A stretch of DNA of 64,000 nt from Acetomicrobium flavidum (lineage in GTDB: Bacteria; Synergistota; Synergistia; Synergistales; Acetomicrobiaceae). Below are positions 10,209 through 16,208 of this stretch, one piece after another (position 1 is the first letter of the stretch; each line of letters opens with the position of its first letter). Where the stretch lies: positions 1,574,001-1,638,000 of the forward strand of contig NZ_FSQZ01000001.1 of assembly GCF_900129645.1 (NCBI RefSeq), given 5' to 3'. Position numbers and translations under genes: made by a program. Below the pieces are notes generated by a model. It was not told the origin of the DNA, made no database searches, and worked only from the letters and a program-made list of their open reading frames with translations.

Positions 10209-12440
10209 TTGAGCAGTGCAAGGCTAATAATTGCGTCCAACAGGTTGCCATTTACCGTTGTAGATAGCAACGGGAGATTGGAGTTGAAGGCGAGCGCTGG
10301 AGGGTTGGTGACGGGCTTAAGTGCCTATCTTGACTCGCTTCAGCATTCGGCATTTACGAATCTTGTCGAATATGTATGGCTTGGATGGCCCGGCGCATCC
10401 ATAGATGATGAGCATAAAGATGGCATAAAGGAGGTTGCCGCAACCAGGTTTAATGCCTATCCCGTATTTGTACAGGAAGAGACAATGGAGGCCTTTTATC
10501 ACGGTTTTTGCAATAAGACGATATGGCCCTTGTTTCATTATTTTCCAAGTTACGTGGTTTATGAAAGCGAGAGCTGGGAATCCTACAGGGAGGTAAATCA
10601 ATATTTTTGCGACGCCATCATGGAGGTGCTTCGCCCAAGTGATATACTTTGGATCCATGACTATCATTTGATGTTGCTTCCCCGCATGATAAGGCAAAGG
10701 ATGCCAGATGTTCCCATAGGATTTTTCCTTCATATCCCCTTTCCGTCTTTCGAACTGTTTCGTCTATTACCCAAAAAATGGGCAGCGGGGATACTTGAGG
10801 GGCTTTTGGGGGCAGATCTGATTGGTTTTCACACTCACGATTACACTCAGTATTTTTTAAGATCGGTGCTTCGTATTTTAGGCATCGAGGCGAACATGGG
10901 ACAGATGTTCGTCGATGGAAGGATGGTCCAAGCCGATACCTTTCCTATGGGCATAGATTTCCATAGGTTTAATGACGCCGTGGTCTCAAAGGAAACCGAG
11001 ATGGAAAGAGAGAAGCTGAAAAATACGCTTTCCGATTTTAAGACGATTATCTCGGTGGATAGGCTTGATTACTCGAAGGGGGTTTTAAACCGGCTTGAGG
11101 GCTTCGAGCTTTTTCTGAAAGACAACCCGCAATGGCACAAGAAAGTGGTACTGTTGCTTGTGATCGTGCCTTCCAGGATTGGCGTCGACCGTTATCAGAC
11201 AATAAAGACTCAGATAGATCAGATGGTGGGTAACATTAACGGTAGATTTGGAACGTTTAATTGGATGCCTATCATATATAAATATGGCCACGTACCATTT
11301 CATCAACTTGTTGCCCTTTATAATATGAGCGACGTTGCATTGATAACGCCACTCAGGGATGGGATGAACTTGGTATCCAAAGAATATGTAGCTTCCAGAA
11401 AGGATGCAACAGGTGTATTGATATTAAGCGAGCTTGCGGGTGCCTCTAAGGAATTGGTCGAAGCTGTGTTGATTAACCCTAACGACAGGGGAGAAATTGC
11501 CATAGCCATTAAAAATGCCCTTGAGATGCCCTTGGAAGAACAAAAAAGCAGGATTGAAAAGATGCAAAGCAGGTTAAAGAAATATGACGTTGTTAAATGG
11601 GCAACGGATTTTATCGATGAATTAAAGGATGTCAAAGAAGGGCAAAGCCGATTTCGAACCAGGATGCTATCCGATGTAGTTAGAAGAAAGATCATAGATG
11701 ATTTCGTTGGAGCCAACCGATGTATGATTTTTTTGGATTACGATGGGACTTTAGTACCTTTTGCAGATAGCCCCGAAAAGGCAGTACCCTCCAACGAAGT
11801 TTTGGATCTTTTGAAAGATTTATCCGAGATTCCCGAGGTTGATCTCGTGATCATCAGTGGTAGGGATAGAGATACGCTCCAAAAATGGCTGGGAAACCTA
11901 AACGTGGGCTTTGTCGCCGAACACGGTGTTTGGCTTAAAGAGAAGGGAAAGGAATGGCAGTTGCTGAAGCCTATGAGCGCTGAGTGGAAAAATAAGTTAA
12001 AGCCATTACTGCTGCGTTATGTTGATAAAGTCCCTGGATCCTTTTTAGAGGAAAAGGAATACTCTTTAAGTTGGCATTACAGGAAATGTGATCCCGAACA
12101 GGCAGTCGATGCTGCCAAAGAACTAACGGATCTATTGCTGCAGGTAGTGGCCAATACTGAAGTGCAGGTAATTCAGGGCCATAAGCTGATCGAATTAAGG
12201 CCATCTGGCATAGACAAGGGAAAGGCAGCGCTTCATTTTCTTTCAAGGGCCGATTACGACTTCATCTTGGCAATTGGAGACGATAGAACCGATGAAGATC
12301 TCTTTAAAGAACTGCCTTCTCATGCCTGGACCGTTCGCGTGGGGATAGTTACATCTATAGCAAGGCTTAACGCCGTAAGTTATAGAGATGTTAGGAGCTT
12401 GCTGAAAGAGCTTAAAAATTGCATAAGAGGTGAAAGGTGA
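10209..12440 (+). CDS. Bifunctional trehalose-6-phosphate synthase / trehalose-6-phosphate phosphatase
   Basis: 743 aa fusion. Residues 1-about 465 are a GT20 trehalose-6-phosphate synthase (IASNRLPF at the start, SAGGLVTGL, WIHDYHLMLLPRMIR, GFFLHIPFPS, SVDRLDYSKGV, LITPLRDGMNLVSKEY). Residues about 495-743 are a HAD-type phosphatase opening with FLDYDGTLVPFADSP and ending with AIGDDRTDEDLF. Together they make trehalose from an NDP-glucose and glucose-6-phosphate. Translation starts at TTG 10209 behind AAAGGAGAT. The stop overlaps the next gene's start, and all three trehalose genes are packed without gaps. Related GT20 enzymes can make other glucosides, but the attached TPP domain supports trehalose. 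Confidence 0.93.
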   Translation: MSSARLIIASNRLPFTVVDSNGRLELKASAGGLVTGLSAYLDSLQHSAFTNLVEYVWLGWPGASIDDEHKDGIKEVAATRFNAYPVFVQEETMEAFYHGFCNKTIWPLFHYFPSYVVYESESWESYREVNQYFCDAIMEVLRPSDILWIHDYHLMLLPRMIRQRMPDVPIGFFLHIPFPSFELFRLLPKKWAAGILEGLLGADLIGFHTHDYTQYFLRSVLRILGIEANMGQMFVDGRMVQADTFPMGIDFHRFNDAVVSKETEMEREKLKNTLSDFKTIISVDRLDYSKGVLNRLEGFELFLKDNPQWHKKVVLLLVIVPSRIGVDRYQTIKTQIDQMVGNINGRFGTFNWMPIIYKYGHVPFHQLVALYNMSDVALITPLRDGMNLVSKEYVASRKDATGVLILSELAGASKELVEAVLINPNDRGEIAIAIKNALEMPLEEQKSRIEKMQSRLKKYDVVKWATDFIDELKDVKEGQSRFRTRMLSDVVRRKIIDDFVGANRCMIFLDYDGTLVPFADSPEKAVPSNEVLDLLKDLSEIPEVDLVIISGRDRDTLQKWLGNLNVGFVAEHGVWLKEKGKEWQLLKPMSAEWKNKLKPLLLRYVDKVPGSFLEEKEYSLSWHYRKCDPEQAVDAAKELTDLLLQVVANTEVQVIQGHKLIELRPSGIDKGKAALHFLSRADYDFILAIGDDRTDEDLFKELPSHAWTVRVGIVTSIARLNAVSYRDVRSLLKELKNCIRGER

Positions 12441-13078
12441 TGGAAAACGGGTTCAGGTTTTGTACGGAATCACACCTCGTTAAGATGCTTGCGATAAGGG
12501 CCAAAAATCCCATTCAGCTTTTAGAAGGCATTAAAAAAGTGCCGTCTGCTTCGATATATTATCACACCCACAGGTTTCTCCAGCAGCACTATTACGCCTC
12601 TCCGGAACCACCTAACGACTTTGCCTACTGGATATCTAACGTCCTTGGCCTGAGGGAATTAGGAGAGAGCATTGCAAGTGTGGAGATAGTAGATTTCGAT
12701 TCTTTAGATGAAATTAGGAAGGAGTATATCAAAAGGTTGGAAGAGCATATCTTTGGCGGCAGGAGCATGATAGATTGCGTTGAAGGGCATGAATTTCACT
12801 TCTTGAGCTGCAAGACATTTGTCCATCCTACTCCCTTTGTTGCGACAAATTTAGATGAATTTAAGGACATCGTCGGAAAAATATACATAAACTCCATTTA
12901 TTTTCACATCTTTGAACCAAGATTGCGGTTTCAAAGAAAAGAGAATGATTTTTCTGCATGGCTGAGAAGCATTGGAGAGGAAATGTCAGCTGATCGGATA
13001 AGCAAACTGGATCCATACGCATTTACCATCGAGGGCCTGAGGAAAAGGATCGTAAATATATTGGAAAGAGATGATTAA
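12440..13078 (+). CDS. DUF5752 family protein, trehalose-operon associated
   Basis: 212 aa, soluble, no signal peptide or membrane helix. The sequence (FRFCTESHLVKMLAIRAKNP, SASIYYHTHRFLQQHYYASP, NDFAYWISNVLGLRELGESI) matches the DUF5752 family, which often lies beside trehalose or glycosyltransferase genes; no activity is known. His, Tyr and Phe are abundant near the start (YYHTHRFLQQHYY). GTG 12437 would add one residue; ATG 12440 has AGAGG at better spacing. It overlaps both neighbours, so all three proteins are probably made in step, which suggests a partner or regulatory function for TreT or the synthase (inference). Confidence 0.8.
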   Translation: MENGFRFCTESHLVKMLAIRAKNPIQLLEGIKKVPSASIYYHTHRFLQQHYYASPEPPNDFAYWISNVLGLRELGESIASVEIVDFDSLDEIRKEYIKRLEEHIFGGRSMIDCVEGHEFHFLSCKTFVHPTPFVATNLDEFKDIVGKIYINSIYFHIFEPRLRFQRKENDFSAWLRSIGEEMSADRISKLDPYAFTIEGLRKRIVNILERDD

Positions 13079-14306
13079 GATGGTAGCCGATATCAGGGAA
13101 TATTCTTCAATTGTAGGGCAAGCAGTCATTGACGAGCTTTTCTACTTGGGGGACAAACTTAAAGGCAAGATAGTGCAAAACATAAATTCAACGGCAGTTG
13201 GCGGAGGAGTAGCTGAGATATTATCCAGGATGGTCCCGTTGCTGAAACAGCTTGGAGTGGACGCTCGCTGGGATGTCATCAAGGGTAACGAGGAATTTTT
13301 TACTATAACAAAAAAAATTCATAATGCCTTGCATGGTGTAGATATACCGATATCGCTTGATGAACTTTTGTACTTTCAGGAAGTTAATCGGCAAAATGCC
13401 GATGAAATGGACCTTTGCGGGGATGTGATGTTCATCCACGACCCCCAGCCGATTGTATTAATCGAAAGACGCGAGGCCATAGGTAAAAAGTGGGCGTGGA
13501 GATGTCACGTCGATTTCACTACTCCAAAGGAAGGCGTTATGGCCTTTTTGAAATCGTACATCGAGAGGTACGATTGTGCTGTTTTTTCTGCCCCGGCATT
13601 TGCCAGAAAGTTGAGCATACCCCAAGCTTTGATCTCCCCTTCCATAGACCCCTTAAGCGACAAGAACAAGGAGTTGCCTCAGGAAACGATAAACTCCGTG
13701 CTGGATCAGTTTGGCATCGACAAGATGCGCCCAATCGTGACGCAAATATCCCGATTCGATTATTTGAAGGATCCCATAGGCGTTATCGAGGTATATAAGA
13801 GGGTTAAACGGCACATAGATTGCCAATTGGTTCTGGCGGGTGGCGGCGCGACCGATGACCCGGAAGGAGCAAAGGTCCTGGAAGACGTCAGAAACGCCGC
13901 TGCAGATGACCCCGATATACATGTGCTGCTGCTTCCGCCAGCAAAGGACATCGAGATCAACGCACTTCAAAGGGCCTCAAGCGTAATTTTGCAAAAATCG
14001 CTGAAAGAGGGCTTTGGCCTGACTGTTGCAGAGGGCCTGTGGAAGGCAAAGCCGGTCATTGCCTCTGCGGTTGGGGGGATCCCTCTTCAAATAGCGCATA
14101 AGTATTCGGGAATCCTGACGTACTCAATCGATGGGACTGTCCATTACTTGAAGCAGCTTTTAAATGAGCCCGAATATGCAAAAAAGCTGGGCATCAACGG
14201 TAGGGAACACATCAAAAACAACTTCCTAATAACGAGGCACATACGGGACTATTTGCTCCTCTTTTTGTCGTTATACCATGAAGACGAGATAGTTGGGTTG
14301 AACTGA
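13071..14306 (+). CDS. treT: Trehalose glycosyltransferring synthase (TreT-like), GT4 family
   Basis: 411 aa GT-B glycosyltransferase. The N-terminal half has KIVQNINSTAVGGGVAEILS, typical of TreT, and HVDFTTP. The C-terminal half has TQISRFDYLKDPIG, VLAGGGATDDPEGAKVLEDV, and the GT4 Glu-x7-Glu motif in LKEGFGLTVAEGLWKAKPVI. Known TreT enzymes from thermophiles make trehalose directly from NDP-glucose and glucose, reversibly. The operon therefore encodes two trehalose routes. It overlaps the DUF5752 gene by 8 nt. ATG 13071 is used; ATG 13080 is also possible. No clear terminator follows within 90 nt. Confidence 0.88.
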   Translation: MIKMVADIREYSSIVGQAVIDELFYLGDKLKGKIVQNINSTAVGGGVAEILSRMVPLLKQLGVDARWDVIKGNEEFFTITKKIHNALHGVDIPISLDELLYFQEVNRQNADEMDLCGDVMFIHDPQPIVLIERREAIGKKWAWRCHVDFTTPKEGVMAFLKSYIERYDCAVFSAPAFARKLSIPQALISPSIDPLSDKNKELPQETINSVLDQFGIDKMRPIVTQISRFDYLKDPIGVIEVYKRVKRHIDCQLVLAGGGATDDPEGAKVLEDVRNAAADDPDIHVLLLPPAKDIEINALQRASSVILQKSLKEGFGLTVAEGLWKAKPVIASAVGGIPLQIAHKYSGILTYSIDGTVHYLKQLLNEPEYAKKLGINGREHIKNNFLITRHIRDYLLLFLSLYHEDEIVGLN

Positions 14307-14400
14307 ATGAGTCTATGCTATGGTCTTCGGACTAAAGTGAAATGTGGCGTGGATTATCAGATATAAAGTACTAATTTGAGTTATAATTAATGTACTTAAC

Positions 14401-14775
14401 TATAATGACATTAAGGGTAAGTCTTTACCGGCGAGGAGGGGAGACGGAAAAACGAAGAGGATGTTGCGTGAAAAGCAGGCAGAAGCTCGAAATCATGGCG
14501 CGTCGAAGTAGAAAGAGCCCGCACCGGACGGTCCTGCCAAGGGGTGTGTAGTAAACCAGGATAGGTTGCTCGACCTCATTTACGAGGCCAAGGGGTGAGA
14601 TTCACAAGGGATGCCTACGCGACAAAGACTTGACGAGCTTGGGCTTTAAAATTGTTAATTGTTTTTGATTTTTATTTGAAATACGCTATCTACGAGAGCT
14701 AAAGGAGTTTGTTTTCGCCAAATATAACCTATTAAGCAGGGAAATATAGCCTTTTCATTTCCCTGCCAATTTTAT
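14401..14775 (+). ncRNA. Candidate structured RNA (alternatively a decayed gene) in the 546-nt gap after treT
   Basis: The gap 14307-14852 contains no intact gene, yet 14413-14650 is clearly GC-richer than its flanks. A TATAAT lies at 14401-14406 (weak TTGAGT 19 nt upstream) and a terminator-like hairpin at 14736-14766 closes the region, so a transcript of about 330-360 nt is plausible. Nested pairings can be drawn: 14483-14489 with 14634-14640, and inside it 14502-14511 with 14615-14623, plus local stems 14532-14536/14557-14561 and 14563-14566/14573-14576. No RNase P, tmRNA or SRP signature is present. The same stretch read as codons from 14413 gives protein-like text broken by an in-frame TAG (14509) and TGA (14596), so a pseudogene is the alternative. 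Confidence 0.35.
14736..14775 (+). terminator. Terminator-like hairpin upstream of the YjiH gene
   Basis: Perfect 10-bp inverted repeat (14736-14745 with 14757-14766) followed by CAATTTTATTT. It ends whatever transcript arrives from the treT side or from the candidate RNA. Confidence 0.65.
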
Positions 14776-14852
14776 TTACCACTTGATATTCGGCCAAATT
14801 ATGCGGATTATATTACTAGCAAACAATTCGACACAGATAGGGGTGTTGGTAT

Positions 14853-16208
14853 ATGACCGGATCAAGGACAAAGTATTCGATGGCTGAGATTTTGCGCTTT
14901 ATAATTCCATCAGCGTTGGGCATCATTTTGTTTTTGGTTCCTGTTCCTCAGGATGGCACTCTTAACACAATACTGGGAATCATTATTGATTGGGCAAAAG
15001 AAACCTTTAAACCTTTCCTTACTGTAGCGGCAATGGTTTTAGTGGTATTGAGCGCAGTTATTACGTTATATGCTTCTCTTGCAAGACCTAATTTCATAGT
15101 CAAAAGCCAATTTTTTAAAGATCTTTTTGTAACTCGTCCTCTTTGGATTACTTCGAGGGTCTTAGGGGCTGTATTTTTCGTCATGATTTATTTTAAAATA
15201 GGCCCTGAAGCGATATGGAGCATGGACACGGGTGGAACGCCTGCATTGGTATTAGCGCCTTCTTTATTGGTAATTTTTAGCGTTCTGGCCGCAGCGGTTT
15301 CGCTTCTCACGGATTTTGGATTAATGGAGTATATTGGTACCTTAGCACGTCCGCTGATGCATCCTCTTTTTAAGCTTCCGGGCAGATCTGCTATCGATTG
15401 TCTTGCATCTTGGCTGGGAAGCAACTCTGTAGGCGTAGTGATAACCACTAGATTGCATGATGCGGGATATTATAGTGATCGCGAGGCCTCCATCATATCG
15501 ATTTCTTTCTCAGTAATAAGCGTTGCCTACATTTACGTCATGGCGGATTTTGTGGGATTGTCTAACATGTATTTCCAAATCTTGATCTCAATCTATGCGG
15601 TCTGCTTCATACTTGCCGTGCTTACCCCACGCATATGGCCCTTTAAAAACATTCCCGATACGTATTCCGGAAGATCAGGACAAAGAATTCCAGAAAGGGA
15701 AATCCCTGCCGGATATTCGTTAAAGGATTGGGCTTTGACGTCCGCCGTAGAGAGGGCAAAAGGGGAAGGGCTTAATACGATACTTAAGACATGCTATCAG
15801 ACTTTTTCGTTTCTTATCGTTAGCACGATGCCGCTTGTCGTATCTTGGGGAACCATTGTGCTCATAATTGCGACCTATACTCCAGTGTTTCAATGGATTT
15901 CCTTGCCCTTTGCCTGGTTGCTTGAATTGGTTAAAATACCTGAAGCGTATAAGGTGGCCCCTGCCTTTGTTCTTGCCTATGCGGATCAATTCTTGGCCGC
16001 AGTCATCGGAGCCACTTGCAGCACAGTCGCCGGTAAGTTTATGTGTGCCTGCATATCTGCTACAGGCATAATTTATATGACTGAGATTGGGGTTCTGATA
16101 TTGAATTCTTCCATACCACTAAATTTTTGGAAGCTTACTGCAATATACTTTGTCAGGGCTGTATTATCCGTGTTTTTATTGGCACCATTTGTGTTTCTCT
16201 TTTGTTGA
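14853..16208 (+). CDS. YjiH-family membrane protein (nucleoside-recognition GATE domain transporter)
   Basis: 451 aa polytopic membrane protein with about 10-11 hydrophobic segments. It matches the YjiH branch of the nucleoside recognition (GATE) superfamily: RFIIPSALGIILFLVPVPQD at the start, then LPGRSAIDCLASWLGSNSVG and a late VIGATCSTVAGKFMCACISA. These proteins are thought to transport a small solute, but the substrate is not established; the nucleoside name comes from distant relatives. It is preceded by a terminator-like hairpin and stands alone, 117 nt upstream of pstS. GGGGTGTTGG upstream of ATG 14853 is a modest ribosome binding site. Confidence 0.85.
   Translation: MTGSRTKYSMAEILRFIIPSALGIILFLVPVPQDGTLNTILGIIIDWAKETFKPFLTVAAMVLVVLSAVITLYASLARPNFIVKSQFFKDLFVTRPLWITSRVLGAVFFVMIYFKIGPEAIWSMDTGGTPALVLAPSLLVIFSVLAAAVSLLTDFGLMEYIGTLARPLMHPLFKLPGRSAIDCLASWLGSNSVGVVITTRLHDAGYYSDREASIISISFSVISVAYIYVMADFVGLSNMYFQILISIYAVCFILAVLTPRIWPFKNIPDTYSGRSGQRIPEREIPAGYSLKDWALTSAVERAKGEGLNTILKTCYQTFSFLIVSTMPLVVSWGTIVLIIATYTPVFQWISLPFAWLLELVKIPEAYKVAPAFVLAYADQFLAAVIGATCSTVAGKFMCACISATGIIYMTEIGVLILNSSIPLNFWKLTAIYFVRAVLSVFLLAPFVFLFC

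Follow-up and report, generated by a model that had tools for sequence, protein, structure and literature searches.

A GC-rich intergenic segment of Acetomicrobium flavidum: very likely the ends of a decayed aldehyde:ferredoxin oxidoreductase gene once under riboswitch control

The intergenic locus next to treT

The segment described here is intergenic, with treT on one side and a YjiH-like gene on the other, and belongs to a stretch of 64,000 nucleotides of Acetomicrobium flavidum DNA (the window). The initial annotation had singled out 14413-14650 as GC-rich between AT-rich flanks and had offered two readings of it, as the relic of a gene or as a non-coding RNA of a new kind. The contrast in composition is borne out, with a GC content of 53.4% compared with 30.2% (14307-14412) and 33.2% (14651-14852) in the flanks and 43.9% in the window. 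We attribute this rise to the old coding tail of an aldehyde:ferredoxin oxidoreductase (AOR) gene that sits amid AT-rich spacers; the tail has 54.3% GC here versus 52.9% in the intact copy of the congener G001. The features of the segment are collected in Table 1.

Signals reminiscent of a transcription unit are found on both sides. The TATAAT hexamer that had been pointed out at 14401-14406 is present, and a second copy at 14382-14387 is the better conserved of the two. A -35 box was sought upstream of TATAAT and no good one was found. The hairpin terminator that had been placed 3' of the region is real, consisting of a 10-bp stem followed by AATTTTATTT.

The wider neighbourhood differs among the genomes. 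The spacer 3' of the relic (14652-14852) has no match in congeners. A distance of about 12-14 kb separates treT from the YjiH-like gene in G003, G004 and G005, where glgB and other genes adjoin treT; in this genome, glgB sits elsewhere (G000:C1:754320). Therefore, the locus has been rearranged. A 213-aa reading frame (12437-13078), flanked by the otsBA fusion gene and treT, is kept in G001, G003 and G005.

Table 1. Features of the segment between treT and the YjiH-like gene, in window coordinates.
Feature	Position	Strand	Basis
Promoter and upstream leader remnant of the AOR gene, the part preceding the riboswitch	14352-14487	+	Alignments to G004 and G001
TATAAT, probable -10 box	14382-14387	+	Invariant in 3/3 leaders (here, G001, G004)
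Junction zone, not confidently alignable, probably diverged leader	14488-14511	+	Alignments; deletion junction 14511/14512
3' end of the AOR gene (45 codons plus stop)	14512-14649	+	DNA identity, tblastn
In-frame TGA at W598, where G001 and G004 have TGG (Trp)	14596-14598	+	Alignment
Intrinsic-terminator-like hairpin with a T-rich tract 3' of it	14736-14767	+	Folding z = -3.73; sequence

Two pieces of an AOR gene

A DNA search with the whole region against 60 related genomes gave two good matches, G001:C25 (94%) and G004:C24 (74%), both within the genus and both restricted to the 3' part, which exposed the two-piece origin of the region. At the DNA level, the 3' piece is 93.5% identical to the G001:C25 copy and 73.2% identical to the intact AOR gene of G004. 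Its frame matches residues 571-615 of the G004 protein with 82% identity over 45 aa (tblastn, E 2e-22) and terminates at the same stop position, and an AOR homologue was also recovered in the genome search (E 2.8e-17). Hence, the gene-relic option is upheld by an AOR homologue that a relative carries at this locus, whereas the option of a new non-coding RNA has to face a clear protein homologue, the very finding that the initial annotation had named as speaking against it.

The peptide frame KEPAPDGPAKGCVVNQDRLL...MPTRQRLDELGL does exist and is broken once, by the TGA codon. It had been thought to be interrupted by a TAG as well, but the in-frame TAG (14509-14511) directly precedes the frame, and the TAG inside GTGTAGTAA (14546-14551) belongs to a different one. 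The tail thus resembles AOR proteins (PF02730 AFOR_N, PF01314 AFOR_C) in frame and in its C-terminal 45 residues; unlike them, it is without 570 of the 615 codons and carries a stop in the remainder. The intact G004 protein has both the AFOR_N and the AFOR_C domain, whereas residues 571-615 alone remain here, with the TGA, and the enzyme cannot be made. In-frame homology at the orthologous locus is found together with disabling lesions.

Within 14401-14511, tblastn returned chance-level matches only for further AOR segments, and therefore the 5' part is leader rather than coding sequence. Positions 14352-14477 share 68% identity with the start of the G004 AOR leader (L032:1603-1726; E 6e-12), and positions 14378-14485 share 75% identity with the G001 leader (G001:C19:1754-1861; E 5e-11). 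A three-way alignment of the leaders retains GTTATAATTAAT and an AGGAGG element. A leader peptide 3' of the conserved AGGAGG(T/G)GAG, judged by eye, was dropped because its frame is not common to the genomes. The exact position of the junction between the two pieces is uncertain within about 25 nt. Measured in G004 coordinates, about 1.9 kb is absent, which takes in the remaining leader with its riboswitch and codons 1-570.

The lost riboswitch is known from the intact loci. Both AOR leaders, in G001 and G004, contain a Moco/Tuco riboswitch (RF01055; 58.3 bits in one and 62.8 bits in the other) in which the P3 stem of the model is missing. P3-less forms have been associated with the tungsten cofactor (Regulski et al., 2008; PMC2408646), and this fits an AOR. 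The part of the leader that comes before the riboswitch in these two genomes is still present in the window, whereas the riboswitch itself is deleted, and RF01055 is absent from 14290-14860 not only at the gathering threshold, but even at E <= 5. Elsewhere in this genome, three strong RF01055 riboswitches (71-77 bits) are found at G000:C1:43972, 143866 and 1513376.

One could imagine that the relic, expressed by its surviving promoter and terminator, still yields a functional small product newly put to use: a short transcript, or else a chimeric peptide such as that of the reading frame 14390-14551 (53 aa). The conservation of TATAAT and of part of the leader would suit such a product, as would the good terminator hairpin downstream. 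However, this reading frame is made by the junction, lies out of the AOR frame and is without counterpart in relatives, and the AOR frame itself is interrupted. We therefore consider a functional small product very unlikely.

Folding and the question of a non-coding RNA

The region had been described as structure-prone, with nested long-range pairings and without a known RNA family. The latter holds, since an Rfam search of the window and of the region gave no family at the gathering score and none at E <= 5. A general tendency to fold is not seen. On the + strand the folding z is +1.42, and 189 of 200 shuffled sequences reach a fold that is equally good or better; the - strand (z = -1.08) is not clearly better than shuffles. 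The proposed 7-bp pair 14483-14489/14634-14640 does exist, and perfect long-range 7-bp pairs occur in weak excess (three, compared with 0.45 expected from shuffles; P 0.04). However, the proposed fold reaches across the deletion junction, and relatives have no homologous equivalent of it. The first arm of this pair lies in leader-derived sequence, with the last bases at the alignable edge, its partner lies in the AOR tail, and a second arm (14502-14511) is found right at the junction. In relatives the sources of the leader arm and the tail arm are about 2 kb apart, and thus the pairs arose by fusion and cannot be a conserved fold.

These results bear directly on the idea of a new structured non-coding RNA that is transcribed from TATAAT to the hairpin terminator. 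Promoter-like and terminator-like signals are in line with it, and so is the surplus of long-range pairs. Against it stand the homology of the two halves to separate pieces of another gene, the crossing of the junction by the proposed pairs, the poor folding and the empty Rfam search. The whole segment is conserved as a unit in none of the 60 related genomes; the search with the region as one unit gave matches to the 3' part only, and a conserved, covarying structure was not found. Such an RNA is, in our judgement, extremely improbable. A note of caution follows for similar cases, as fused fragments of a dead gene between a surviving promoter and terminator can mimic a GC-rich structured RNA.

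Intact loci in the genus and the origin of the relic

In G004 an intact AOR gene of 615 codons directly follows treT, as the relic does here, and in G001 the order is treT, two genes, AOR. No AOR is found after treT in G003 and G005, and therefore the gene comes and goes in the genus. The treT relatives named in the contig search all belong to other phyla and are uninformative on this locus.

Taken together, we are confident that the region is what is left of a riboswitch-controlled AOR gene, now a pseudogene of which both ends were kept and the middle was lost. The ancestral locus would have comprised treT, a promoter, a leader of about 0.3 kb with a P3-less Moco riboswitch of the tungsten-cofactor type, and the 615-codon AOR gene. 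In this genome, comparison with two congeners shows that about 1.9 kb is gone, beginning inside the leader and extending through codon 570, and that the start of the leader is fused to the last 45 codons. At the level of sequence, the alignments show that both pieces are homologous, that the middle is missing, that a nonsense change is present and that the riboswitch is absent. Probably the middle was removed by a deletion in this lineage and not by some more intricate rearrangement. Presumably, neither a working AOR nor a riboswitch nor a conserved RNA is left, and any transcript that may still run from the surviving promoter as far as the hairpin would be short and either untranslated or mistranslated. 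That the orphaned promoter-leader-terminator unit, having lost riboswitch and coding body, makes a constitutive short RNA with an acquired regulatory role seems exceedingly unlikely. As in bacterial pseudogenes formed by internal deletion, the ends are retained, the middle is gone and a nonsense change has been added, and nothing unusual sets the relic apart from them. It is an ordinary gene relic, recording the lineage-specific loss of a riboswitch-controlled AOR inside one genus.

One observation counts against the pseudogene remnant. The 93.5% identity of the tail to G001 is surprising for a relic under neutral decay, as 138-nt windows of the neighbouring otsBA-treT genes, compared with G001, average 74.5% and reach 86.2% at most. 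Between G001 and G004 the AOR likeness is 83-84% and that of treT 75%. A plausible cause of the excess likeness of the tail would be that strains have recently exchanged AOR sequences.

Two AOR sequences are present in G001, on different contigs (L062, G001:C19; L033, G001:C25), and they are 96.7% identical over 333 nt. One of them is treT-linked, and the C25 copy is followed by a gamma-glutamyltranspeptidase-like gene. The pair is either a duplication or a strain mixture in the assembly. In the genome studied here, a further AOR-family gene outside the window (L117, G000:C1:971906-973756, - strand) has a single mid-gene in-frame TAG (...YETLASFG*LCMIDDVE...), and may be a second decaying AOR or reflect a sequencing error; similar genes are open in G002, G003, G004 and G005.
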